A stretch of DNA of 64,000 nt from Planctomyces sp. SH-PL62. GTDB lineage: Bacteria > Planctomycetota > Planctomycetia > Isosphaerales > Isosphaeraceae. This document shows positions 1,765-37,901 of this stretch, piece by piece. Each line of letters starts with the position of its first letter. The first letter of the stretch is position 1. The notes below the pieces were generated by a model. The model saw nothing but the letters and a program-made list of their open reading frames with translations, made no database searches and was not told the origin of the DNA. The stretch spans positions 3,224,001 to 3,288,000 of the forward strand of contig NZ_CP011273.1 of the NCBI RefSeq assembly GCF_001610895.1, read 5' to 3'. Position numbers and translations under genes: made by a program.

Positions 1765-3141
1765 TCAGAAGAGTTCGCGGATCTCGCGGCAACCGAAGTC
1801 GACGAGCGGGAAGGGGCGTCCCGCCGGGCCGGGGAGCATGGCTTCCAGGTCCAGGCCCAGGCTGTGGAAGATCGTCGCGGCGACGTCGCCCGGTCCGACG
1901 GGGCGGTCCGCCGGCACGGCCCCGATGGGGTCGCTGGCCCCGACCACACGCCCCCCCTGGACGCCCCCCCCGGCGAAACCGACCGTGTAGCAGTTCGGCC
2001 AGTGGTCGCGGCCCCCGGCGGGGTTCACGCGGGGCGTCCGGCCGAATTCGGCCAGGTTGCAGACCAGCGTCGCGTCCAGCAGGCCCCGGCGGTCGAGGTC
2101 CTCGATGAGCGCGGTATACGCCTGGTCGTACATCGGGCAGACGATGTCGCGCATCCCCTCGATCGAGGTGAACGGCTTGGAGCCGTGGATGTCCCAGGTG
2201 ATCTCGTCGAAGACGGTGAGGAACGCGTTGACGGTCACGAACCGCACGCCGCTCTCGACCAGCCGACGCGCCAGCAGGCAGGACTGGCCGAGCCGGGTCA
2301 TCCCGTAGCGCTCGCGGGTCGCCGTGGATTCGCGGGACAGGTCGAACGCCTCGCGAGCGCTGGGGCTCGTCATCAGCCGGAAGGCCGACTGGAAGTCCTC
2401 GTCCAGCAGCGAGGCGTCCTCGGAGGCCTCGAACGTGGCGACGGCGTCGTCCACCAGCTCGCGGATCTTGCGACGGCGGTCGAGCCTCAGGCTGCCGATC
2501 TCCTTGGGGGGGAGCAGGTCGGGGACGCGGAAGTCGGGCTTCGAGGGGTCGGCGTTGAGCGAGAACGGGTCGTGCGCCTTGCCCAGGAACCCGGCCGCCT
2601 GGCCGTTCGGCAGGTTGCCGCCGCCCCTCCCCATCAGCTCGGGCAGGACCGCGAACGGCGGCAGGTCGGTCTTCCGGCCTTTCAGATAGCTGACGACCGA
2701 CCCGATGTGCGGGGTGTTGACCCCTCCCGAGAACAGCCGGCCGGTCTGCATCATCTGCCAGCCCGCGTCGTGGACCGCCGCGCCGCCGTGGTGGACCGAC
2801 CGGACCAGCGAGATCTTGTCGGCGATCTGGGCGTGCCGGGGCAGGATCTCGGAGAACTGGATCGCCGACGATCGGGACGCGATCGGCTTGAACGGCCCTC
2901 GGATCTCCGCCGGGGCGTCGGGCTTCATGTCCCAGAGGTCCATGTTGCTGGGCGCGCCGAGGTTGAAGATCATGATGCACGAGCGGTCGTCGGCCTCGGG
3001 CCGCACGGCGCCGGCCGCCCTGGCCGCGAACCAGTGGGGGAGGCCGAAGCCGATCGCCCCCAGGGTCCCCACCTGGAGGAAGTCGCGACGGGTCGTCCCG
3101 TCGCAGGTCGAGGTCTTCCCCTCGCCGTTGAGCTTGAGCAT
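1765..3141 (-). CDS. DUF1501 family TAT-exported protein
   Basis: 458 residues. The N-terminus carries a twin-arginine signal (TRRDFLQVG followed by a hydrophobic stretch), and the body has the DUF1501 sulfatase-like fold signature: SCIMIFNLGAPSNMDLWDMK near residue 55, CNLAEFGRTPR near 370 and GRDHWPNCYT shortly after. These residues match the family's remote similarity to alkaline-phosphatase-superfamily enzymes, but no substrate is known. The start at 3141 is supported by an AGAGGAG ribosome binding site about 9 nt upstream. The PSD1 gene follows 43 nt after its stop, so the two probably form one transcript and an extracytoplasmic functional pair. Confidence 0.88.
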   Translation of the reverse strand: MLKLNGEGKTSTCDGTTRRDFLQVGTLGAIGFGLPHWFAARAAGAVRPEADDRSCIMIFNLGAPSNMDLWDMKPDAPAEIRGPFKPIASRSSAIQFSEILPRHAQIADKISLVRSVHHGGAAVHDAGWQMMQTGRLFSGGVNTPHIGSVVSYLKGRKTDLPPFAVLPELMGRGGGNLPNGQAAGFLGKAHDPFSLNADPSKPDFRVPDLLPPKEIGSLRLDRRRKIRELVDDAVATFEASEDASLLDEDFQSAFRLMTSPSAREAFDLSRESTATRERYGMTRLGQSCLLARRLVESGVRFVTVNAFLTVFDEITWDIHGSKPFTSIEGMRDIVCPMYDQAYTALIEDLDRRGLLDATLVCNLAEFGRTPRVNPAGGRDHWPNCYTVGFAGGGVQGGRVVGASDPIGAVPADRPVGPGDVAATIFHSLGLDLEAMLPGPAGRPFPLVDFGCREIRELF

Positions 3142-3590
3142 GCGCGGACTCCTCTTCGACGACCTCGGGCCTCGCGGGCGGGATCGGGGGCGGGAGCGTC
3201 GGGGCGTTCGGCCCTGTCGCGCCAGGATGCGAATGGAATTCAGGATAGCTCACCCGACCCGGCCGACGCCAGCATCCATCGGTCGACGCGGCGGGGGAGG
3301 GGGCGGGGGGCTCCACGGACTTCCATCCCTCGATCGGAGCCGTCGCCTTCGGCCTCGATGATCGCTGCATCTCGCCGAACCCTCCGGTTCGCGCTAAAGC
3401 GCATGAAGATGGGCGGACGATAAAACGGGAGGTCATGCCGAATCGCCTCGATCCCCGACCCTTGGCAAAGGCGAGCCATCAAGGCGATTACGTATTACAG
3501 CAGATGGGCGATGTGCGTGGTCCGCCCAGGACGCCGCGCCGAAGGAATCGGCGGGCCCTCATCCCTCGATCCAATGGAATGGTCGATCCG
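3142..3590. promoter_or_regulatory. divergent intergenic region between DUF1501 and porin genes
   Basis: A 449-nt gap between two diverging genes, so it should hold promoters for both. No clear -35/-10 pair was recognised. A perfect 12-bp palindrome (GCGCTAAAGCGC) lies at about 3391-3402 and could be an operator, but nothing else supports that. Open frames across the gap look like high-GC artefacts. Confidence 0.3.
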
Positions 3591-4916
3591 ATGTCCAAAC
3601 GAGTCATCCTGTTGGCGTCGTGCGCGGCGATGATCTCGACGACCACGCTCCGCGCTCAGGAATTCGCGCCGGCGGAGGCTCCAGGGCCGCAGCCGCAGCC
3701 GACGCAGCAGCCGGTCGTCACGGGGAGGGGGTTGGAAGCGGAGTCGTTGCCCGCCGAGACGGCCGAGGACCTCCCGCCGGGGTTCGACCTGTCGGAGCGA
3801 CTGGGGCCGACGCCGGTCTCGGACGTCCGATTCCTGATGGACCAGCTCGGCTTGCAGCGGGCGTTCGGCGACAGCGGCATCCGTGCGTTCGGCTGGGTCG
3901 AGGGGGGATACACGGGCGCCTCGACCGGTCCCGGGCTGCTCTCCGTCGAGCCTCGACAGAACCGGTTCGGCAACGAATTCCTGCTGAATCAGATCGGCCT
4001 GGTGTTGCAGAAGCCGCTCCACCAGGACGGCCTCAACTTCGGGTTCAACATCCGCTACTTCGCCGGCGCCGACGCGGCCCTGGGCCAGCCCAAGGGGGGC
4101 ATCGGCTCGACCATCACCAACCAGCGCTTCAGCCAGGACTTCCGCGACCTCTACCTCTCCGCGCACCTGCCGATCCTGACCGAGGGGGGCATGGACGTGA
4201 AGGTCGGCCGCATGAACACCATCATCGGGTACAACGGCTTCCTCGCCCCGTACCGGCCGTTCTACTCCAGCGATTACCAGTTCTTCTACTCGCAGGACGG
4301 TGCCTTCACCGGCTTCCTGACGAACCTCAACGTCACGAAGCGCCTGGAGTTCTGGAACGGCATGACGCTGGGCGCCAACACGTTCTTCACCATGCGAAGC
4401 GCCCACTCGTTCTGCTACATCGGCCAGGTGAACTACTGGCTGACCGACGAGCAGAAGACGCGGCTGACGGCCTCGGTCTACACCGGGCCGAACGCCATCT
4501 TCGCCGCGCCGGGGCTGGCCGGCGATCAGAACACGACCGTCGAACTCCGCGTCCAGCAGAACTGGAGCCAGCGGTTCACGCAGATCGTCCAGTCCAACAT
4601 GGGTTGGGATCGGAACACCCCGGTCGGCACCGGGTCGTGGTACGGCGTTTACACCATCGGGATCTACCACCTGACCGACAAGCTCGACGGCCTGGCGCGC
4701 GGCGAGTGGTTCGCCGACGTCAAGGGGACGCGCACCGGGATCGACACCGACTACGCGGCGGTGACGCTGGGGCTCAACTGGCATCCGGTCAAGTATCTGG
4801 ACATCCGGCCGGAGATCCGGGGCGACTTCGCCGGCGCCCCGGCCTTCGGGACCAACGGGGCTCACACCGATTTCAGCCAGCTCACCGGCGGCGTCAGCTT
4901 CCTGGTCAAGTTCTGA
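3591..4916 (+). CDS. outer-membrane beta-barrel porin (BBP2/OmpL-like)
   Basis: 441 residues from ATG 3591; an in-frame ATG at 3579 is an alternative. A signal peptide (MSKRVILLASCAAMISTTTLRAQ) leads into a Pro/Gln-rich linker and then a region of alternating hydrophobic and polar residues rich in Tyr, Phe and Gly, ending in FLVKF. The terminal Phe is typical of proteins inserted by the BAM machinery. Motifs such as FGWVEGGYTG, VKVGRMNTIIGYNG and DYAAVTLGLNWHPVKYLDIRPE fit the planctomycete BBP2 beta-barrel family. It converges on ureD, and the two stop regions overlap by 11 nt. A role in urea entry is conceivable from position only; substrate is unknown. Confidence 0.7.
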   Translation: MSKRVILLASCAAMISTTTLRAQEFAPAEAPGPQPQPTQQPVVTGRGLEAESLPAETAEDLPPGFDLSERLGPTPVSDVRFLMDQLGLQRAFGDSGIRAFGWVEGGYTGASTGPGLLSVEPRQNRFGNEFLLNQIGLVLQKPLHQDGLNFGFNIRYFAGADAALGQPKGGIGSTITNQRFSQDFRDLYLSAHLPILTEGGMDVKVGRMNTIIGYNGFLAPYRPFYSSDYQFFYSQDGAFTGFLTNLNVTKRLEFWNGMTLGANTFFTMRSAHSFCYIGQVNYWLTDEQKTRLTASVYTGPNAIFAAPGLAGDQNTTVELRVQQNWSQRFTQIVQSNMGWDRNTPVGTGSWYGVYTIGIYHLTDKLDGLARGEWFADVKGTRTGIDTDYAAVTLGLNWHPVKYLDIRPEIRGDFAGAPAFGTNGAHTDFSQLTGGVSFLVKF

Positions 4917-28985: not shown

Positions 28986-29342
28986 TCAACCGTGTTCGCG
29001 TTCGCGGACGGTGACGTAAACTTCCTGGCAGGTCTCGGCGATCTTCTCGCCCAGCCCCTGGTGCTTGGTCTCAAGCTGGGCGGAGTACATCCCCAGCACC
29101 TTGCAGAGGAAGGCCCCGTGGCAGGGGTCGCCTTCCTGGACGAGCTGGTCCAGGGATTCCTCGATCTGGTCGGCCAGATACAGGAGGAACTGGGCCTGGC
29201 CCTTGATCTCGGCCAGGTACTTCCGCAGGTCGGGGGAGATCAGCTCGCGAGGCGACGCGGCGTCCTCGACGTGCTCCGCGTGGCCGTCGCCGTCGTGAAA
29301 CTCGTGCAGCGTCGGGACGCCGTTCTCGGCCGAGGTGCTCAT
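28986..29342 (-). CDS. small helical protein, paralogue of its upstream neighbour
   Basis: 118 residues from ATG 29342, which overlaps the previous gene's stop by ATGA. No known domain was recognised. After an acidic, His-containing N-terminal 35 residues, it shows a heptad-like helical pattern: YLAEIKGQAQFLLYLADQIEESL, then DPCHGAFLCKVLGMYSAQLETKHQ. The same pattern occurs in the upstream gene product (LQFMDYLVRA, then DPGTRIFIKQLVEMHTANLRQ), so the two arose by tandem duplication. Likely cytoplasmic, since neither signal peptide nor membrane segment is seen. Translational coupling suggests a heteromeric pair. Confidence 0.65.
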   Translation of the reverse strand: MSTSAENGVPTLHEFHDGDGHAEHVEDAASPRELISPDLRKYLAEIKGQAQFLLYLADQIEESLDQLVQEGDPCHGAFLCKVLGMYSAQLETKHQGLGEKIAETCQEVYVTVREREHG

Positions 29343-29644
29343 GAGGGGTCTCCGGCCGGGAAGCCAGGCTCGGGCGACTGGACCTGGGCGTCGAGCAGGT
29401 CGCACAGCTCGCCGATGGCCTGCATGTGCTGGCTCTCCTGGCGGAGGTTGGCCGTGTGCATCTCGACGAGCTGCTTGATGAAGATGCGGGTGCCGGGGTC
29501 CGGCTCGTCCTGGAACCGCTCGACGTCGGCGACGGCGGCCCGGACCAGATAGTCCATGAACTGGAGCTTGCCGCGGATCGAGACCGAGAGCCGGGAGAGC
29601 GTGGCGCTTCCCGCGGCCTCCGGTGGCGCTGTGAGCTGGGACAT
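29339..29644 (-). CDS. small helical protein, first of a paralogous pair
   Basis: 101 residues from ATG 29644; a GTG at 29677 could add 11 residues, and neither start has a strong ribosome binding site. It is unrecognised. The product is predominantly helical with SIRGKLQFMDYLVRAAVAD, DPGTRIFIKQLVEMHTANLR and QAIGELCDLLDAQ, matching the downstream gene product block for block. The shared core is a helix ending in a YL motif, a short loop with Asp-Pro, and a second long helix with K-x-L-x-M. It leads a two-gene unit and diverges from the ThuA-like gene. Confidence 0.62.
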   Translation of the reverse strand: MSQLTAPPEAAGSATLSRLSVSIRGKLQFMDYLVRAAVADVERFQDEPDPGTRIFIKQLVEMHTANLRQESQHMQAIGELCDLLDAQVQSPEPGFPAGDPS

Positions 29645-29946
29645 CCTGGAAGTGTCTCCGGGCCGAGGGCCGGACACCTGAGCGAGGCGTCAGCGTCCGT
29701 GCGGTGTAGAGGGTCGTCGCCCGGGATCTTGAGTCAAAATCCGCAGGGGACCGAAATTCCCCTGGAGATTACTCCGACCCCCGGCCGCTTGCAAGCGGAA
29801 AGCCATCCCCCGGTGGACGCCTGGGCACTTCGACCGGCGCCGGGTTCCTTCCGCATCCGGGGCGTAGTACAAGGAAGCGTCGGAACGCGAGGTCGGGCCG
29901 GGCCCGCCTCGCTCGCCATCCCTCTCGCCCGAAGGAGAACCCTATC
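29645..29946. promoter_or_regulatory. divergent intergenic region upstream of ThuA-like gene
   Basis: 302 nt between diverging genes; it must contain promoters for both the paralogous pair and the ThuA-like gene. No clear hexamers or operators were recognised. Confidence 0.3.
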
Positions 29947-30849
29947 ATGTCCCGAAACCTGAACCGCCGCGAACTGCTCCTGGCCGGCGCCGGCGCCGCC
30001 TGGCTGGGCGCGGGCGTCCTCTCGCGGTCCGTCGGGGCGACGGCCCGGGCCCCCAAGAAGGTCCTCTTCTTCACCAAGAGTTCGGGCTTCCCGCACTCGG
30101 TCGTCACCCGGCAGGACGGCACCCCGGCGCACGCCGAGAAGATCCTGACCGAGATCGGCAAGGAGCACGGCTTCGAGGTCGTCGCCTCCAAGGACGGCCG
30201 CCTCTTCGAGCCCGACAAGATCGGCGAGTGGGACGGCTTCGTCTTCTACACCACCGGCGACCTCACCACCCCCGGGACCGACAAGTCCCCCCCGCTCTCG
30301 GCCGACGGCGAGAAGGCCCTCTACGACGCCATCCGCAAGGGCAAGGGCTTCATCGGCATGCACAGCGCCACCGACACCTTCGGCCACCACGGGGCGAGGA
30401 ACAAGGGGGCCGAGGATCCGTTCATCCAGATGATCGGCGGCGAGTTCGTCTCGCACGGCCCCCAGCAGGTCGCGACCCTGGAAGTCGTCGACCCCAAGTT
30501 CCCCGGCCTGGCCGACGGCTTCGGCAAGGCGTCTTCGTTCCAGATCAACGACGAGTGGTACGCCCTCAAGAACCAGCCCGACGACCTGCACGTGATCCTC
30601 GTGCAGAAGACCGAGGGCATGGACGGCCACATGTACAACCGCCCCGATTTCCCGGCCACCTGGGCCCGCAAGTACGGTGACGGCCGCGTCTTCTACACCT
30701 CGATGGGCCACCGCGAGGACGTCTGGACCAACCCCAACTACCAGTCCCTCCTCCTCGGCGCCCTCGCCTGGTCCACCGGCCTCGCCGACGCCGACGTCGC
30801 CCCCAACATCAAGCAGGTCACCCCCGGCTACGACAAGCTGACGCGGTGA
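29947..30849 (+). CDS. ThuA-domain protein, TAT-exported
   Basis: 300 residues, preceded by an AAGGAG site. A twin-arginine signal (NRRELLLAGAG and a hydrophobic stretch) is followed by a ThuA/trehalose-utilisation domain with a glutamine-amidotransferase-like fold: KKVLFFTKSSGFPHSVV, WDGFVFYTTGDL, GKGFIGMHSATDTF, MIGGEFVSHGPQQ, NDEWYALKNQ and GRVFYTSMGHREDVW. Planctomycetes have many such exported proteins, often near sugar-degradation genes. None of those is adjacent here, so the substrate is unknown. The cysteine nucleophile of true amidotransferases is not evident. Confidence 0.85.
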   Translation: MSRNLNRRELLLAGAGAAWLGAGVLSRSVGATARAPKKVLFFTKSSGFPHSVVTRQDGTPAHAEKILTEIGKEHGFEVVASKDGRLFEPDKIGEWDGFVFYTTGDLTTPGTDKSPPLSADGEKALYDAIRKGKGFIGMHSATDTFGHHGARNKGAEDPFIQMIGGEFVSHGPQQVATLEVVDPKFPGLADGFGKASSFQINDEWYALKNQPDDLHVILVQKTEGMDGHMYNRPDFPATWARKYGDGRVFYTSMGHREDVWTNPNYQSLLLGALAWSTGLADADVAPNIKQVTPGYDKLTR

Positions 30850-30993
30850 CGATCCGAGAACGACCGGCCGCCGGGAGCCCCGGCGGTCGGCCTCGTCTCG
30901 TCGACGCGACAGCGCGGCGTCCCGGCCCTGATCGACATCGCGGACGAACGCAAGACGCCGACGGCGCTCGTGCTCGTCGTCCCCTTGTAAACG

Positions 30994-31162
30994 GTCTTCC
31001 CCCCTCGCGGGGGAAGACAGACCGCGAAGCGGTCAGATGAGGGGGGGCGAGCATAAGCGCCGTCGGGATTCGCAGCCCGGCCGCACGAAACGCCGGCGGT
31101 TTCCATGCTCGCCCCCCCCTCATCCGGCCCTTCGGGCCACCTTCTCCCGCCAGGGGGGAAGG
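30994..31162. repeat. dispersed palindromic repeat element, copy 1
   Basis: About 169 bp. Each end carries an arm of about 60 bp in opposite orientation: a C/G-run hairpin (30994-31018 at left, 31140-31162 at right), a second short hairpin (GACCGC-GAA-GCGGTC at left, GGCCC-TTC-GGGCC at right), then GATGAGGGGGGGCGAGCAT at left and its complement at right. The arms pair with one another, flanking a 50-nt centre containing GTCGGGATTCGCAGCCCG. The same plan recurs at 50.5 kb, so this is a repeat family. It has no open frame or transposase and no obvious target duplication. Confidence 0.8.
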
Positions 31163-31186
31163 ACGTTAAGGGTCGGAATCAGGCGC

Positions 31187-34100
31187 TCACGGTCCGGTCG
31201 CTTCAAAGGCGACGGATCCGTCGATGATGGTGTAGCGTACCCTGGCCGAGAGGACGTCGGGGGGCGGGACCTGGAAGAGGTCGCGGTCGAAGACCGTGAC
31301 GTCGGCGCGGAGGCCGAGCCTGAGGACGCCGAGGCGGCCTTCGGCGAAGGCGGCGTGGGCGGCGCCGGCGGTGAAGGCCCGGAGGGTCTCTTCGAGGCTC
31401 ATGCGCTGGTCGGGGTGCCAACCCCCTTCGGGACGGCCCTCGGCGTCCTGGCGGGTGAGGGCGGCGAAGAGGCCCCATTGCGGGTCGACGATCTCGACGG
31501 GGAAATCGCTGCCGAAGGCGAGCCGGACCCTGGCGTCGAGGAACCATCGCCAGGCGTAGGCGCCGTCGACGCGGCCGGGGCCGAGGCGGGCGTCGGCCCA
31601 GCGCTTGTCGGTGCTGGCGTGCGAGGGCTGCATCGAGGCGATCACCCCGAGTTCGGCGAAGCGGGGGACGTCTTCCTTGCGGACCACCTGCGCGTGCTCG
31701 ATCCGAAGCCTGGGATCGGCCGCCTCCGGGACGGCCTTCCGCGCGGCGTCGAAGGCGTCGAGCACCAGGGCGTTCCCCCGGTCGCCGATGGCGTGGACGG
31801 CCACCTGCCAGCCGTTCTTGAGGGCGGCGACGGTCGTCTGCTCCAGCGTCCTGGGGTCGATGAGGAGGAGCCCCTTGTTGTGCGGGTCGTCGGCGTAGGG
31901 CTCGAACAGGAGCGCCCCGCGCGAGCCCATCGCGCCGTCGATGAACAGCTTGATCGCCCGCATCTCGAAGCGGTTCCCGGCGGGCGGCGGGGCCTGGCTC
32001 ACGAACACGGCCTCCCCGCCCGCAGGGGGCGAGGCCATCGCGTAGACCCGGAGTTTGAGCGAGCCTTCCTCGTCCAGCTCGCGGAAGACCTCTTCCTCGC
32101 GCCGGGAGACCCCCGCGTCGTGGACGCCGGTCAGGCCGAGGGAGAGGATGCGATCCTGGGCCGCGAGGATTCGTTTGCGAACGTCTTCGCGCGAGGCGGC
32201 CGGGACGACGCGGCCGACCAGGCCCATCGCGCCGTCGATGAAGACGCCCGAAGGCCGACCGTCGGCGAGGTGGTGGATCTGGCCGTCGGAGGGCGGCTGA
32301 GTGCTCGCGTCGACCTTCGCCCGCTTCATGGCCTCGGTGTTGGCCCATCCCGCGTGGCCGTCGACGCGCGAGAGCCAGACCGGCCGGTCGGGCGAGGCGG
32401 CGTCGAGGGGGGAGGCGTCGGGGAACTCGCCGCCGGGCCAGAGGCTCTGGTCCCAGTTCGCCCCCAGGACCCAGGCGTCCGCCGGCAGCGTCGCCGCGTA
32501 TTCCCTGACCTTCCGCGAGACCTCGTCGAGCGACTTCACCCCCCGCAGGTCGAGCTGGGTCAGGCTCTCGCCGAGCGCCGCGATGTGGCCGTGGGCGTCG
32601 ACCAGGCCGGGCGTGGCGAGCGTTCCGGGGGCCTCGATCACGCGGGTCGACGGGCCCTTCCAGGCGAGGACCTGGTCGCGCGAGCCGACGGTGACGATCT
32701 CGCCGTCGCGCGCCGCGAGGCCCTCGGCCCAGGGGTTCGCGGCGTAGCCCGTCCAGATCCGACCGGGGAGGAGCACCAGATCGGCCGGGCCGTCGTGCTT
32801 CAAACGCAGGACGCGGCCGGGGAGCCTCTGGTCGGCGGCGGGGAATTCCGGCCGCTGGCCGTCGGCGATGACCGCCTGGCCGTTGACGAAGACGAAGCGG
32901 GCGCCCTCGGCGTACTTCTGCGGGTCCTCGAACGTCGCCGCGTCGCGGAAGGTCTTCGGGTCGAAGACGACGAGGTCGGCGTACGCGCCCGGCCTCACGA
33001 CGCCTCGGTCGCGCAGGCCCAGGATCGAGGCGGGGAGGCCGGAGTTGGCGCGGATCGCGTGTTCAAGGGTGATGACGTGCTCGTCCTCGGCGTATCGGAC
33101 CTTGCGGGGGAAGGTGCCGAACGAGCGGGGATGCGGGCGGGAGGCGTCGTTCAATTCGCCTCGGGTTCCGCCGTCGGAGGCCGTGGCGACGAAGTCGGAC
33201 TGCATGACGGCCCGGACCTCGTCCTCGCTCATGCTGAAGTTGATCGCCTGCGTGCCGCCGTTGCGCTGGACGTCCAGGACGATCTCCAGCGGCGTCGTCC
33301 CTTCCTCCTTGGCGATGGTCGCCAGGTCCTTGCCGACGCGGCTGGGCCTGGGGGGGTAGGTCGTCAGTCGGATCGCCGCGCCCCCCATGCGCTCGTCGAG
33401 CGAGCGGAGGATCTCCTCGCGAAGTTTGGGGCCCTGCACGGGGTCGTCGGCCAGCTTCGCGAACTCCTCCTTGCTCACGCGGACGGCCCAGTGGGGGACG
33501 ACCATCGCGCCGAGCGACGTGCTGGAGGCGACGTAGGGGGACTGGTCTGCGGTCGCGACGCGGCCCTTTGCGCGGGCGTCGGCGATCTTGGCCAGGGCCT
33601 CGGCGGTCTTCCCCCAGTTCCGCCGGCCGCTAGCCTTGAGGTGGGAGATGTGCACCGGGGCGCCGGACTGTTCGCCGATCGCCAGGGCCTCGTCGACGGC
33701 GTCGAGCAGGCCGCTCTCCTCATTGCGGATGTGGCTGGCGTAGATCCCGCCGTAGCTATGGACGAGTTTCGCCAGCTCGACCAGCTCGGCGGTGCGGCCG
33801 TACCGGCTGGGGACGTAGATCAGGCCCGTCGACATCCCCCACGCGCCGTCGTCCAGGGCCTTCCTCGCCAGGTCCTTCAGCCTGGTCATCTCCTCGGCGG
33901 TCGGCTCGCGGTCCTCGACGCCCATCACGGCGCGGCGCAGCGAGCCGTGGGGGATCAGGTGGACGACGTTCGAGCCCGCGCCGAGGGCGTAGATCCTGCC
34001 GAAGTACGCATGGACGTCGATCGGCCCCGAGCCGCAGTTGCCGGTGACGATCGTGGTGACGCCCTGGGTGATGTAGTTGAGGTTGAGCCGTCCCTTCGCG

Positions 34101-34414
34101 CCGATGATGCCGTCGTCGGAATGGGTGTGGAGGTCGATGAAGCCGGGGGCGACGACCAGTCCGGAGGCGTCGATGGTCCGCGCGCGGGCCATGCCGGCGA
34201 GGTCGCCCACGGCGATCACGCGGTCCCATTTGATCGCCACGTCGGCCTTGCGCCGGGGGGCGCCCGTGCCGTCGACCAGCACGCCCCCCTGGAGCACGAC
34301 GTCGGCGGGGGGCACGTCGGCCCCCCTCGCGGCGACGTGATCGAACCAGCAGGCCAGCCCCAGGGCGATCCCCAGCGCGGACCGCAGACCTCGGATTCGT
34401 CCACCCATGCTCAT
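31187..34414 (-). CDS. secreted double amidohydrolase: D-aminoacylase-like domain fused to YtcJ-like domain
   Basis: 1,075 residues from ATG 34414 (site AAAGGGG). A signal peptide occupies about residues 1-32. Residues about 35-530 match N-acyl-D-amino-acid deacylases: GFIDLHTHSDD (His96, His98), TGNCGS (Cys127), YASHIRNEE (His228), HISHLKASG (His258) and TASDGG (Asp414). Residues about 541-1075 match the YtcJ-like amidohydrolase_3 family: GLVDAHGHIAALGESL (His608, His610), AVHAIGDRGN, LRIEHAQVV and LAFGSDFPVE. Both halves therefore keep full metal-ligand sets. These are normally separate proteins of about 500-550 residues. Substrates are not known; an exported role in peptide or amide scavenging is an inference. 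Confidence 0.88.
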   Translation of the reverse strand: MSMGGRIRGLRSALGIALGLACWFDHVAARGADVPPADVVLQGGVLVDGTGAPRRKADVAIKWDRVIAVGDLAGMARARTIDASGLVVAPGFIDLHTHSDDGIIGAKGRLNLNYITQGVTTIVTGNCGSGPIDVHAYFGRIYALGAGSNVVHLIPHGSLRRAVMGVEDREPTAEEMTRLKDLARKALDDGAWGMSTGLIYVPSRYGRTAELVELAKLVHSYGGIYASHIRNEESGLLDAVDEALAIGEQSGAPVHISHLKASGRRNWGKTAEALAKIADARAKGRVATADQSPYVASSTSLGAMVVPHWAVRVSKEEFAKLADDPVQGPKLREEILRSLDERMGGAAIRLTTYPPRPSRVGKDLATIAKEEGTTPLEIVLDVQRNGGTQAINFSMSEDEVRAVMQSDFVATASDGGTRGELNDASRPHPRSFGTFPRKVRYAEDEHVITLEHAIRANSGLPASILGLRDRGVVRPGAYADLVVFDPKTFRDAATFEDPQKYAEGARFVFVNGQAVIADGQRPEFPAADQRLPGRVLRLKHDGPADLVLLPGRIWTGYAANPWAEGLAARDGEIVTVGSRDQVLAWKGPSTRVIEAPGTLATPGLVDAHGHIAALGESLTQLDLRGVKSLDEVSRKVREYAATLPADAWVLGANWDQSLWPGGEFPDASPLDAASPDRPVWLSRVDGHAGWANTEAMKRAKVDASTQPPSDGQIHHLADGRPSGVFIDGAMGLVGRVVPAASREDVRKRILAAQDRILSLGLTGVHDAGVSRREEEVFRELDEEGSLKLRVYAMASPPAGGEAVFVSQAPPPAGNRFEMRAIKLFIDGAMGSRGALLFEPYADDPHNKGLLLIDPRTLEQTTVAALKNGWQVAVHAIGDRGNALVLDAFDAARKAVPEAADPRLRIEHAQVVRKEDVPRFAELGVIASMQPSHASTDKRWADARLGPGRVDGAYAWRWFLDARVRLAFGSDFPVEIVDPQWGLFAALTRQDAEGRPEGGWHPDQRMSLEETLRAFTAGAAHAAFAEGRLGVLRLGLRADVTVFDRDLFQVPPPDVLSARVRYTIIDGSVAFEATGP

Positions 34415-34485
34415 GCGATTCCCCTTTCGCTCGATCCGATGCCATCCGGCCGCCGCGTCTGGTTCCGCGACGGCCGCTCCCGAGA

Positions 34486-36918
34486 TTACCCTCGCTCCGA
34501 GGGGCGGCGGAAGGGGAGGCCGGGGCGTTTCGCCGCCGCGAGCGAGGCCGGGGCGGGGGGCGTGGTCCTTCCGGGGGGGAGCCGGCGGCGGCGTTCGAAC
34601 AGCGTGAGGCAGGCGGGCAGGAGGAGGAGGTTCCCCAGCGTGCTCCCGGCCGTGGCGACGGCCACCATCGTCCCGAAGTTCACGAACGGCTCGAACTCGC
34701 TCGTCCGCAAGGCCAGGAAGCCGACCGCCACGGCCAGGCTGGAGAGCAGAACGCCCGGCCCGGAGACCGAATAGCTGGCGAACAGGCTGCGGCGGAATCC
34801 CCGCGTCCGGCGCAGCTTGTGGTACTGGATCAGGCAGTGGAAGGTGTCGTCCACCGAGAGCCCCAGGGCCACGCTGGCGACCAGCGCCGTGGCGATGTCC
34901 AGCTTGATCGAGAGCCAGCCCATCAGGCCCAGGACCAGCGCCACCGAGAGCAAGGTCGGCAGCAGGGCCAGGACGGCCAGGGTGGGGCTGCGGAAGGCCA
35001 GCGTGAGCATGGCCAGGATGCCGAATGCCGACCAGGCGAAGGTCCCCCACTGCGTCGCCACCACCCCCTCGGTCGTCTTGGTCATCAGGTACGACAGGCC
35101 GGTCAGGAACGACCCCGGGCCGAACTCGGCGCGGGCGGCGTCCTCGGCCCGTCGGAAGATCGACGCCTTGGTCGCGGCCGGCTGCTGCTCCAGCAGGCGA
35201 ACGAGGATCCGGGCCCGCTTCGCCTCCGGGTTCCAGAAGCTTTGCAGGAGCGACGCCTGGGGAGAGGCCGCGATCAGCTCCAGCTTGTCGGCCAGGACCC
35301 GGGCGCGGGCGTCCGGGGCGAGCTCGGCGATCCGGCCGTCGGGGTCCAGGACCGTCGCCAGCGAGAGCACCTGGGCCACGGCCCCCGGCCGGTCCGGTTC
35401 CAGGTCCGCGATCGCGTCGCCGACCCGGTCGAGCTTGGCGAGGACCTCCGGGTCCAGGTCCGACTCGATCGGCGCGACGATCTCGACCAGGCCGATCCCC
35501 CCCAGCTTCGACTCCACGGCCTGGTAGTCCCGGACGACCCGCGTCTGGGGCTTGAACAGGTTGATGTAGTTGGTTTCATACGTCAGCCGGAACATGCCGA
35601 AGGCGGGCGGGATCGTGGCCAGGGCGATCGCCGCGACGACATACGCCGGGCGGCGGTGGACCAGCAAGGTCAGCCGGTTCATCGCGCCGGAGACCCGCGA
35701 TCGCGAGCCTTCCCGGACGGGGATCTCCAGCGGGAACGGCGGCAGCATGGCGATCGGCGAGAGCGCCATGACGAGCACCGCGGCCGTCAGCGTGCAGGCG
35801 CCCAGGATCGCCCCGAACTGCCGGATCGGCATCACGTCGCTGGTCACCAGCGCGAGGTAGCCGACGGCCCCCGTCACGGCCGTCCAGAAGATCGGCGTCC
35901 AGACCCTGCGGAGGGTGAGCCGCGCCGCGGTGGGGGCGGGGTGCTTGCGGCGGTCGTCGCGGAAGTGGATCGCCAGATGGCTCGCCGCGGGCATCGTCAG
36001 GACGATGATCTGGGCCACCAGCGGGCCCCCCGAGAGCGAGAGCCGGACGCCGAACGCGTGCAGCAGCGTCTCGGTCGCCAGCCAGACCGTCCAGCCGGCG
36101 AGGATCGGCACGATCGCCCACCAGATGCTCCGCACGGCCGAGAGCGTCACCAGCGCGATCAGGATCATCCCCACCGCCGCCAGCCGTCGGCCGTCGATCT
36201 CGATGGAGGCGAAGCCGTCGGCCAGCAGGACCGGCGGGCCGACCACCGCCGGCCTGGCGATCCCATGCCGCGCGGCGAAGGCGTCGGCCTTTTCGCGGAG
36301 CAGACGCACGGTCTCGATCACGTCGTGATCGCTGGTCTTCCGCAGTCGGGCGACGACCGCCGTCGTCGTCGCGGTCGAATCGATCAGCGTGCCGACGAAC
36401 AGCGGGTTCTTGATCAGCCGCTCCCGGATGGCGGCCCGCCGCGCGGCGTCGCCGGCGCGGACGGCCCCGCCGACGGTCATGGCGTTCGCCTTCAGGTCGA
36501 TGTTGCCGACCGCCCGCCGGGCCGCGTCCATCGCCATCTTGCGCGCGAAGCCGGGGAGCTTGTCGAGCGCCAGCAGCGCGTCGTCGAGCGCCCAGACCAG
36601 CGGCATGGCGTCGAGCGACTCGATCCGCAAGACGCCCGGGATCGCCTCGGGCGCGACCGCCGCCGCCAGCTCGGCGACCCGGTCCACCCCGGCCGCGCTG
36701 ACGACCTCGGGGTCGTCGTAGACGAGGAACACGAAGTTGTCGTCGCCGAAAGTCCCGGCGGCGTCCTGGTAGACCAGCATCGCCGGGTCGTCCTCGGCGA
36801 AGAACGAGCTGATCGACTGCTCGTAGCCGACGTGCTCGCCGAAGACGATCAGGTAGGCCAGCAGCGCGAGAACGACCGAGCCGACGACGTAGCGGGAGCG
36901 CAGCAGGAGTTCGATCAC
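34486..36918 (-). CDS. RND-superfamily (MMPL/Patched-like) transporter
   Basis: 810 residues from GTG 36918, which is better spaced from AAGGA than the TTG at 36927. Two similar halves each have one helix, a large extracytoplasmic loop and five more helices. The first membrane bundle starts at VGSVVLALLAYLIVF and continues at about 230-380; the second begins near PAYVVAAIALATIPP. The second-half motif VALGLSVDDTFHCLIQYH carries the paired Asp of proton-coupled RND exporters. Such proteins without periplasmic adaptor partners usually move lipids or hydrophobic molecules. It is 71 nt upstream of the double amidohydrolase on the same strand and could be co-transcribed with it. Confidence 0.9.
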   Translation of the reverse strand: MIELLLRSRYVVGSVVLALLAYLIVFGEHVGYEQSISSFFAEDDPAMLVYQDAAGTFGDDNFVFLVYDDPEVVSAAGVDRVAELAAAVAPEAIPGVLRIESLDAMPLVWALDDALLALDKLPGFARKMAMDAARRAVGNIDLKANAMTVGGAVRAGDAARRAAIRERLIKNPLFVGTLIDSTATTTAVVARLRKTSDHDVIETVRLLREKADAFAARHGIARPAVVGPPVLLADGFASIEIDGRRLAAVGMILIALVTLSAVRSIWWAIVPILAGWTVWLATETLLHAFGVRLSLSGGPLVAQIIVLTMPAASHLAIHFRDDRRKHPAPTAARLTLRRVWTPIFWTAVTGAVGYLALVTSDVMPIRQFGAILGACTLTAAVLVMALSPIAMLPPFPLEIPVREGSRSRVSGAMNRLTLLVHRRPAYVVAAIALATIPPAFGMFRLTYETNYINLFKPQTRVVRDYQAVESKLGGIGLVEIVAPIESDLDPEVLAKLDRVGDAIADLEPDRPGAVAQVLSLATVLDPDGRIAELAPDARARVLADKLELIAASPQASLLQSFWNPEAKRARILVRLLEQQPAATKASIFRRAEDAARAEFGPGSFLTGLSYLMTKTTEGVVATQWGTFAWSAFGILAMLTLAFRSPTLAVLALLPTLLSVALVLGLMGWLSIKLDIATALVASVALGLSVDDTFHCLIQYHKLRRTRGFRRSLFASYSVSGPGVLLSSLAVAVGFLALRTSEFEPFVNFGTMVAVATAGSTLGNLLLLPACLTLFERRRRLPPGRTTPPAPASLAAAKRPGLPFRRPSERG

Positions 36919-37085
36919 GGGGGCCAAGATCCTTCTCGGGGTGGTTCCGATCGGTCGCGCCGGCAGTCTCCGTGGCAGGTCCGCCGCGATAATTTCACCA
37001 GTTTACCGATCCGGCCCCCATTTGACAGCGCCGCCGCACCCCCGTCGCGAAGTCTCCCGAGCCCCCGAACCGGGGGCGCCCGGGA

Positions 37086-37901
37086 TCAGGCCGTGACGAT
37101 GGTGTTGTCTTCGATCACGTTGCCGGCGGCCTCGTTCTTGATCGCCGTGACGTTCTTGTAGAGGACGTTCTTCACGACGGTGTTGTTCGTGGCGGCTGAA
37201 CGGAGCCACACGCCGACGGCCTGCAGCTGGACTCGCGACGAGTAGGTGTCACGTCCGATGAGGTTGCCGACGACGGCGTTGTGCTTCGAGGGGCCCACGA
37301 GTTCCACGCCGGCGTTGTAGGTGCCCAGGACGTTCTGCAGGGCGGGCGTCGTCGACACGCCGCCGCCGATCGTGTTGCGGCTGCCGCCGACGATCCTGAC
37401 GGCCGCCCCCAGCCGCGACTGGCCCACGGCCCCGAAGGCGTTGCCGTCGACCGAGACGAGGTCGGCCTGATTGATCTCGATCCCTGAGGGGGCGCCCGCG
37501 CCCTCGTTGATGAAGGAGATACCTCGAATCCGCGAGCCGCCGCCGCGGGGGTTGACCGACATGATTGGGCCGCTCCCCCCGTTCTTGATGATCTGAACCG
37601 TCAGGTGGGCGTTGTTGACGGAGGGGTCCGTGGACGTGTTCGGGGAGGCCCCAGCCTGCGTGTAGCCGTCGATGACGACCTTGCCGGTGATCGGAGGGAG
37701 CGCCTGGCCCCCCGGCCTGATGGGCGCGTCGCTGGGGAGTTGGAACTCGATGACGTCGCCGCCCGGCGTCTGGTTGGCCTGATTGATCGCCGCTCTCAAC
37801 GTCCCCGGCCCCGCGCCCGCCGCGCTGGTGACCAGGAAAACCGTCATCAGCGCCCGCGATTCAAGCTGCTCGCTCACCGGTCGGCACGACTTGCGTTTCA
37901 T
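37086..37901 (-). CDS. short right-handed beta-helix surface protein with LExR-type N-terminus
   Basis: 271 residues from ATG 37901; a longer in-frame extension to 38222 has noise-like composition. The N-terminus (MKRKSCRPVSEQLESRALMT) is the planctomycete signal/sorting type in which a conserved LExR motif precedes the mature protein. Next comes a CSLREA-like segment (GPGTLRAAINQANQTPGGD) and then parallel beta-helix rungs (SGIEINQADLVSVDGNAFG, AAVRIVGGSRNTIGGG, GVELVGPSKHNAVVGNLIG, NNTVVKNVLYKN). Such folds occur in adhesins and polysaccharide lyases, but no catalytic residues could be assigned. At 271 residues it is much shorter than most relatives. Probably extracellular. Confidence 0.75.
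   Translation of the reverse strand: MKRKSCRPVSEQLESRALMTVFLVTSAAGAGPGTLRAAINQANQTPGGDVIEFQLPSDAPIRPGGQALPPITGKVVIDGYTQAGASPNTSTDPSVNNAHLTVQIIKNGGSGPIMSVNPRGGGSRIRGISFINEGAGAPSGIEINQADLVSVDGNAFGAVGQSRLGAAVRIVGGSRNTIGGGVSTTPALQNVLGTYNAGVELVGPSKHNAVVGNLIGRDTYSSRVQLQAVGVWLRSAATNNTVVKNVLYKNVTAIKNEAAGNVIEDNTIVTA

Follow-up and report, generated by a model that had tools for sequence, protein, structure and literature searches.

A fused pair of amidohydrolases in the Isosphaeraceae and the apparent loss of either half among relatives

What does it mean when one gene encodes two complete enzymes? Gene fusion is commonly taken as a sign that two enzymes act in one pathway. The question is raised by a locus of Planctomyces sp. 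SH-PL62, in a stretch of 64,000 nucleotides of contig NZ_CP011273.1 (positions 3,224,001 to 3,288,000, forward strand) that we call the window. Here a single open reading frame (ORF) of 1075 codons plus stop (window 31187–34414, minus strand), with no internal stop, encodes two amidohydrolases end to end. The original prediction described a D-aminoacylase-like enzyme naturally fused to a YtcJ-like one, exported from the cell, and took the fusion to suggest sequential reactions on one substrate. Do the two heads depend on each other? Or does each work independently, on a tether that can be given up? The reading that we favour, with a probability of roughly 0.7, is a two-headed, probably exported N-acyl-amide hydrolase whose heads are independent and whose ancestral tether has repeatedly been undone.

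That the fusion is natural is borne out by its distribution. We searched 45 genomes of the order, every one of them from a single family, the Isosphaeraceae. The full-length fused frame is present in 21 of them, the window's own included, at 53–100% identity, and in another two (G060, G019) the fusion is cut by contig ends. Of the 35 searched genomes with either half, 23 thus carry it; among named organisms it is found in Aquisphaera insulae and Singulisphaera sp. GP187, both of this family. Separate genes in relatives, which the original prediction had asked about, were looked for, and at the thresholds used none of the 45 genomes has both orthologous halves as two genes. What the family does contain is one half without the other. 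In 12 of the 45 genomes one half is absent or wrecked and the other kept, in both directions: seven have the N-half only (G007, G020, G021, G025, G026, G034, G061), four the C-half only (G002, which shares the window's genus, G011, G015 and G024), and in G023 the N-half is open and the C-half broken, on a contig that begins just before the N-half. The pattern points to two enzymes that are able to function separately. Since each half is kept alone in relatives, sequential processing cannot be essential to the use of either head, and the step from fusion to sequential reactions is not supported. In G034 the N-half copy is fragmentary and interrupted by one in-frame stop; this N-only locus (L157, G034:C553) lies in a draft genome and is either a decaying gene or an assembly error.

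Outside the Isosphaeraceae the fusion was not found in draws of 397 genomes of the class and 392 of the phylum, among the matches listed for the class. The class draw includes the 45 family genomes and overlaps the phylum draw, and as two candidates were scored per genome, at thresholds of 1e-120 and 1e-172, a divergent independent fusion could escape. An N-type match at an E-value of 1e-120 or better is present in 201 of the 397 class genomes, and most of the listed rows span the N-half alone. Relatives of the C-half came from a contig scan with two C-half patterns, 80 of at least 548 being kept, a sample that leans to the C-half. At none of 78 loci from outside the Isosphaeraceae does an N-half homologue of over 80 bits lie beside the C-half, within flanks of at most 10 kb and often shorter. 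A genome from another family of the class (G041) has N-type and C-type genes on separate contigs. Within the genomes searched, the fusion thus gives little sign of having been formed from two genes that are widely kept as neighbours.

Are both heads complete enzymes? Across the fused protein, Pfam reports PF01979 in two stretches and PF07969 in three. The N-half (residues 1–535) matches the D-aminoacylase structures 1rjp (E 1.5e-85), 1m7j (4.1e-85) and 3gip (3.9e-77), and more weakly PpOngB (9kb1, 7.5e-63). In excerpts of PMC12017989, subtype V enzymes require a Cys/His/His metal site and a catalytic Asp, and a conserved Tyr, Lys, Tyr and Arg grip the acetamido and alpha-carboxylate groups of the substrate. 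The N-half has the metal site and the Asp in C127, H228, H258 and D414, which align with 1rjp and 1m7j. Each of the 17 fused rows of alignment A1 keeps these four together with H96 and H98, and the same six residues with Y200, K260, Y294 and R430 occur in all 34 full N rows and, where covered, in the fragment that makes 35. In PpOngB the anchors are Tyr194, Lys254, Tyr285, Ser291 and Arg379 (excerpts of PMC12017989); their counterparts Y200, K260, Y294, S298 and R430, mapped by eye through the 1m7j alignment, are invariant in the N-half rows. The Ser292 that sets OngB specificity is replaced by Thr299 in 35 of 35 N rows, like the Thr of the D-aminoacylases, again mapped by eye. The alignment with 1m7j breaks off at residue 301 and is taken up again at 350, and the counterpart of OngB Gln298 falls outside it. 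From these sequence matches we infer that the N-head is a subtype V, beta-site mono-zinc deacylase of N-acyl-D-amino acids or of closely related N-acyl amino-sugar-acids.

The nearest known systems differ from the N-half in several respects. It shares the Cys/His/His site, the catalytic Asp and the Tyr/Lys/Tyr/Arg anchors with D-aminoacylase and N-acyl-D-glutamate deacylase (1m7j, 1rjp, 3gip; Klebsiella 9g5m/9gv8). Those enzymes, however, are single-headed with no second enzyme behind, and the region past residue 301, their insertion domain, is unaligned. With OngB, a GlcNAc1A deacetylase (9kb1; excerpts of PMC12017989), it shares the subtype V core and the alpha-carboxylate anchors, differing at the specificity serine. 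Elsewhere in the Planctomycetia, D-aminoacylase-like genes that stand alone (G041, G067, G129, G242) are 50–54% identical to the N-half and have the same tested catalytic residues. They are unfused, and the DGP motif of the linker described below is missing from all four of their C-termini read.

The C-half belongs to PF07969 (E 3.2e-128; 429.6 bits for the whole protein, gathering cut-off 29.7), the best stretch, residues 591–1069, covering profile positions 1–471 of 472. Residues 536–1075 match the uncharacterised hydrolases 3icj (E 1e-52) and 3igh (1.2e-48). N-substituted formamide deformylase is a YtcJ relative. Among the NCBIfam models listed (the best 25 of 60, the best 25 of 54 and all 12) no cut-off was reached; the best for the whole protein was NF006560, with 196 bits (190 for the N-half) against a cut-off of 340, and the best for the C-half scored 35.1 against 298.15. 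In the YtcJ-type metalloBSH an HxH motif, a carboxylated Lys, two His and an Asp are each proven essential by alanine mutants (excerpts of PMC13081902). The C-half has the corresponding residues in H608, H610, K822, H874, H907 and D970, aligned with 3icj. None of the six varies among the 17 fused rows of A1 or in alignment A2; H608 and H610 are present in 40 of 40 covering rows, and K822, H874, H907 and D970 in 41 of 41 C rows. His687, in 41 of 41 C rows yet only near-invariant in A2, may correspond by eye to His196 of metalloBSH. We infer that the C-head is a YtcJ-type N-acyl amide hydrolase, binuclear and bearing a carboxylated lysine. The prediction that each half keeps its own HxH and downstream ligands is thus upheld for the residues tested.

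Among the YtcJ-like enzymes (3icj/3igh; metalloBSH, excerpts of PMC13081902; SmELA, excerpts of PMC10699109), which share these ligands, the C-half differs in being fused behind another amidohydrolase. The epsilon-lysine acylase SmELA is classed as YtcJ-like, and metalloBSH acts on taurine conjugates, binding the sulfonate through Ser194, Gln381, Asn443 and His544 (same excerpts). MetalloBSH has an extra C-terminal domain; the fused protein lacks one, ending six residues past its PF07969 match.

A predicted structure of the whole protein agrees with this for the C-half. The AlphaFold model, from 31 sequences (three fused, the remainder C-half relatives), has a mean predicted local distance difference test (pLDDT) of 74.2 and a predicted template modelling score (pTM) of 0.59. 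Over most of the C-half, block by block, pLDDT exceeds 90. This half matches 3igh with a TMt of 0.85 in Foldseek and, in the VIA comparison, with Z 49.5 and a root mean square deviation (rmsd) of 3.4 A over 477 aligned residues; the VIA comparison tests the C-half alone. D-aminoacylase structures rank 3–6 in Foldseek, with a TMt of 0.51 and rmsd of 12–13 that are little informative, and are absent from the 50 VIA rows.

The two halves are joined by a 21-residue linker at 32854–32792, in agreement with the original prediction, which had the junction at about 32.79 kb. Its length differs by up to six residues across 17 fused genes. In 16 of these a PG[RK]-like motif is followed by DGP, the exception being G010, in which DGP is missing. 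Near the junction (residues 516–620) the in-frame starts are TTG 538, GTG 547 and GTG 592; by eye all are unconvincing as an internal start for the C-half. At the other end of the protein the N-terminus resembles a leader, with a basic n-region and a hydrophobic stretch at residues 12–24, read by eye, and AlphaFold places a helix at 11–28 within it, at a pLDDT under 50. Export of the protein, part of the original prediction, is therefore probable from its N-terminus. A YtcJ-like protein of Pseudomonas aeruginosa, PA2699, is a Tat-dependent exoprotein (excerpts of PMC4899797).

Selection acts on both halves. For four within-genus pairs the ratio of nonsynonymous to synonymous substitution rates (dN/dS) is 0.215–0.290 in the N-half and 0.210–0.318 in the C-half. 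In the linker dN is 0.20–0.43, compared with 0.07–0.13 in the halves, and dN/dS is 0.18–0.93. N-only copies are also under constraint, with dN/dS of 0.121, 0.139, 0.044 and 0.120 in four pairs, three of them sharing rows, and they retain the tested catalytic residues wherever covered. The N-half of G023, whose C-half is broken, gives 0.117 against the fused G035, and a fused control pair gives 0.122.

Is the solo state older than the fusion, or derived from it? In maximum-likelihood trees of each half the solo copies nest among the fused, and a single clade of all fused rows is rejected by the approximately unbiased (AU) test (p 1.45e-45 for the N-half, 1.98e-14 for the C-half). Parsimony requires at least four changes between fused and solo on each tree and is neutral as to their direction. 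The direction, loss from the fused state, comes from remnants of the lost half or linker in solo genes. The N-only genes at L147 and L150 end with LPGRALRL..DGP plus 2 and 19 residues, in contrast to the four outgroup N genes, which have no DGP. Among C-only genes, L140 has the leader and then RPGRALRLQAEGPAD, the tail of the lost N-half, and L141 retains the first strand of the N-half, ADVVVEGGTVVDG, joined directly to PADL. At L145 the N-half is open, whereas the C-half has lost residues 605–1007 or thereabouts, its sequence passing from about 604 directly to about 1008 and then meeting a frameshift. A weaker sign is LPGRALRL..DG in L146 and L157, of one clade. Neighbouring genes point the same way. 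A ThuA gene, an MMPL/RND gene or both lie beside N-only L147, L148, L151 and L152 and C-only L139, L140 and L141, as they do beside many fused copies, and these shared neighbours place the seven in the same locus. Because of the common locus, the remnants and the similar linkers, a single origin is favoured. Most simply, the fusion would have arisen once, on the Isosphaeraceae stem, and been undone several times by deletion of one catalytic core in place.

Several points weigh against this account. L148 retains LPGRALR alone, a motif that can also occur in solo genes, and no clear remnant is present in C-only L139 and L149 or in N-only L151 and L152. Among the fused genes of the N tree G010 branches off first, on a long branch with support of 81/61; its linker is the one that lacks DGP, and the C tree places it with C-only G024 (92/97). 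Neither half reaches threshold in 10 of the 45 order genomes, among them G017, a single contig, and the half-lost genomes are mostly drafts, only G002, G024 and G025 having five contigs or fewer. With regard to function, the pocket residues fit no single known substrate class, and the AlphaFold model of the N-half is poor (pLDDT about 50 in the full model and a mean of 49.1 alone, from 3–4 sequences), so that its fold rests on homology. A single origin is the simplest reading and not a secure one.

How, then, would the fused protein work? Because both heads fall in families that cut N-acyl amides and the N-terminus resembles a leader, the simplest reading is an exported, loosely tethered, two-headed scavenger of N-acylated compounds. 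Joined by the short, variable linker, each head most likely works on its own beyond the cytoplasm. A pipeline, in which one head strips one N-acyl group and hands its product to the other, is unlikely. The tethered pair in 21 of 45 genomes and the origin of both heads in N-acyl-amide-cutting families (excerpts of PMC12017989 and PMC13081902) would suit it; it is opposed by the relatives that lost either half and retained the other, by the 78 outside loci with no N-half homologue of over 80 bits within the flanks covered, and by a linker that varies in length and changes faster than the halves. Might one head instead be a non-catalytic partner, an aid to binding or folding? MetalloBSH without its extra C-terminal domain is about 4-fold less active, so an appended domain can help (excerpts of PMC13081902), but across the fused rows neither half varies at the metal and catalytic residues tested, and dN/dS is similar for the two, which makes this improbable. 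A refinement of the scavenger reading, by analogy with the epsilon-lysine acylase and metalloBSH, on which the specificity of the C-head is modelled, seems quite unlikely too. The N-head would take alpha-N-acyl-D-amino acids and the C-head side-chain or other amine-linked acyl groups from one extracytoplasmic substrate pool, such as acylated amino acids or lipoamino acids, and lineages would trim the protein to the head that their diet needs.

The history of the gene has its own alternatives. That a missing stop, by sequencing error or strain-specific mutation, merged neighbouring genes is scarcely credible and was rejected, as the same fusion recurs in 21 genomes down to 53% identity with a similar linker; we found no point in its support. 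Could the fusion instead have been made repeatedly from separate genes, some solo copies being ancestral? In the class the N-type gene often occurs alone, G041 has both types on different contigs, and G010 is aberrant in its linker and in its grouping with G024. The remnants in L140, L141, L145, L147 and L150 and the same-locus neighbours speak against repeated fusion, and we regard it as very unlikely.

The enzyme kinds are already known. The architecture and its loss in two ways did not turn up among the papers listed in searches of an open-access collection, from which most subscription papers are absent; the original prediction, too, knew of no characterised enzyme of this form. The evolutionary point is the strongest, namely a fusion whose members come apart. 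Two complete metalloenzymes, fused at the level of a family, seem to have come apart again more than once at a single locus, and in both directions, a documented counter-example to the reading of fusion as a sign of one pathway. The fused, N-only and C-only versions form a ready comparative set for the effect of tethering, and if the two heads do take complementary bonds, the locus would be a natural series for measuring the worth of the tether. For annotation, a label of 'D-aminoacylase' or 'amidohydrolase' in the Isosphaeraceae may conceal a second enzyme.

Table 1. Features of the fused gene and its neighbours (window coordinates; roles marked with a PMC number are from excerpts of that paper)
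Feature	Position	Strand	Basis
Whole fused amidohydrolase gene, 1075 codons plus stop	31187..34414	-	ORF list and translation
AAAGGGG, possible ribosome-binding site, 6 nt before ATG at 34414	34421..34427	-	by eye
Probable export signal, residues 1 to ~32	34319..34414	-	by eye
N-half, residues 37-520, D-aminoacylase-type subtype V amidohydrolase	32855..34306	-	Pfam, alignment A1, structure-sequence matches
N-half HxH (H96, H98)	34121..34129	-	alignments incl. 1rjp/1m7j
N-half Cys127, subtype V metal ligand	34034..34036	-	alignments; role from PMC12017989
N-half His228, metal ligand	33731..33733	-	alignments
N-half His258, metal ligand	33641..33643	-	alignments
N-half Asp414, catalytic residue	33173..33175	-	alignments
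N-half Arg430, substrate carboxylate anchor, with Lys260, Tyr294; Tyr200 for amide oxygen	33125..33127	-	alignments; roles from PMC12017989
Linker, residues 521-541	32792..32854	-	alignment, frame reading
C-half, residues 542-1071, YtcJ-type amidohydrolase (PF07969)	31202..32791	-	Pfam, structure-sequence matches, AlphaFold model comparison
C-half HxH (H608, H610)	32585..32593	-	alignments incl. 3icj
C-half His687 (DGHAGWA), proposed counterpart of metalloBSH His196	32354..32356	-	by eye from excerpts of PMC13081902
C-half Lys822, expected carboxylated lysine	31949..31951	-	alignments incl. 3icj
C-half His874, metal ligand	31793..31795	-	alignments incl. 3icj
C-half His907, metal ligand	31694..31696	-	alignments incl. 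3icj
C-half Asp970, metal ligand	31505..31507	-	alignments incl. 3icj
MMPL/RND-type transporter gene, upstream, its end 71 bp from the fused gene	34486..36927	-	Pfam, NCBIfam, neighbour comparison
ThuA-family gene, convergent neighbour	29947..30849	+	Pfam; beside the locus in many fused and half-lost relatives

The surroundings of the gene are summarised in Table 1. An MMPL/RND homologue lies near the locus in many relatives, not in all. Neither ThuA nor MMPL was found in the stretches examined around fused L123, L129, L130, L133 and L135–L138, N-only L150 and C-only L149, nor on the short pieces L142, L143, L145, L146 and L157. Two small ORFs on the minus strand of the window (29339–29677 and 28986–29405, 112 and 139 amino acids) accompany ThuA by the locus in many relatives. 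A scan of 30700–37300 gave no promoter-like and one terminator-like site, compared with 0.2 and 1.6 in shuffles. On the plus strand an open frame of 1245 amino acids (window 31037–34774) overlaps the fused gene in antisense and is perhaps a by-product of high G+C codon usage.

Scans of viral contigs gave a single, distant relative of the N-half, a D-aminoacylase-like gene of 36% identity in L162 (IMGVR_UViG_3300043178_000177, 3001–4461), which may be cargo or host contamination. Beyond the window, the same genome contains a frame of 1437 amino acids (L159:1685-5995, plus strand, which is G000:C1 at about 4537684-4541994) with PF01979 in three stretches and PF07969 in two. It is apparently a triple amidohydrolase, and tandem amidohydrolase fusions may recur in this genome.

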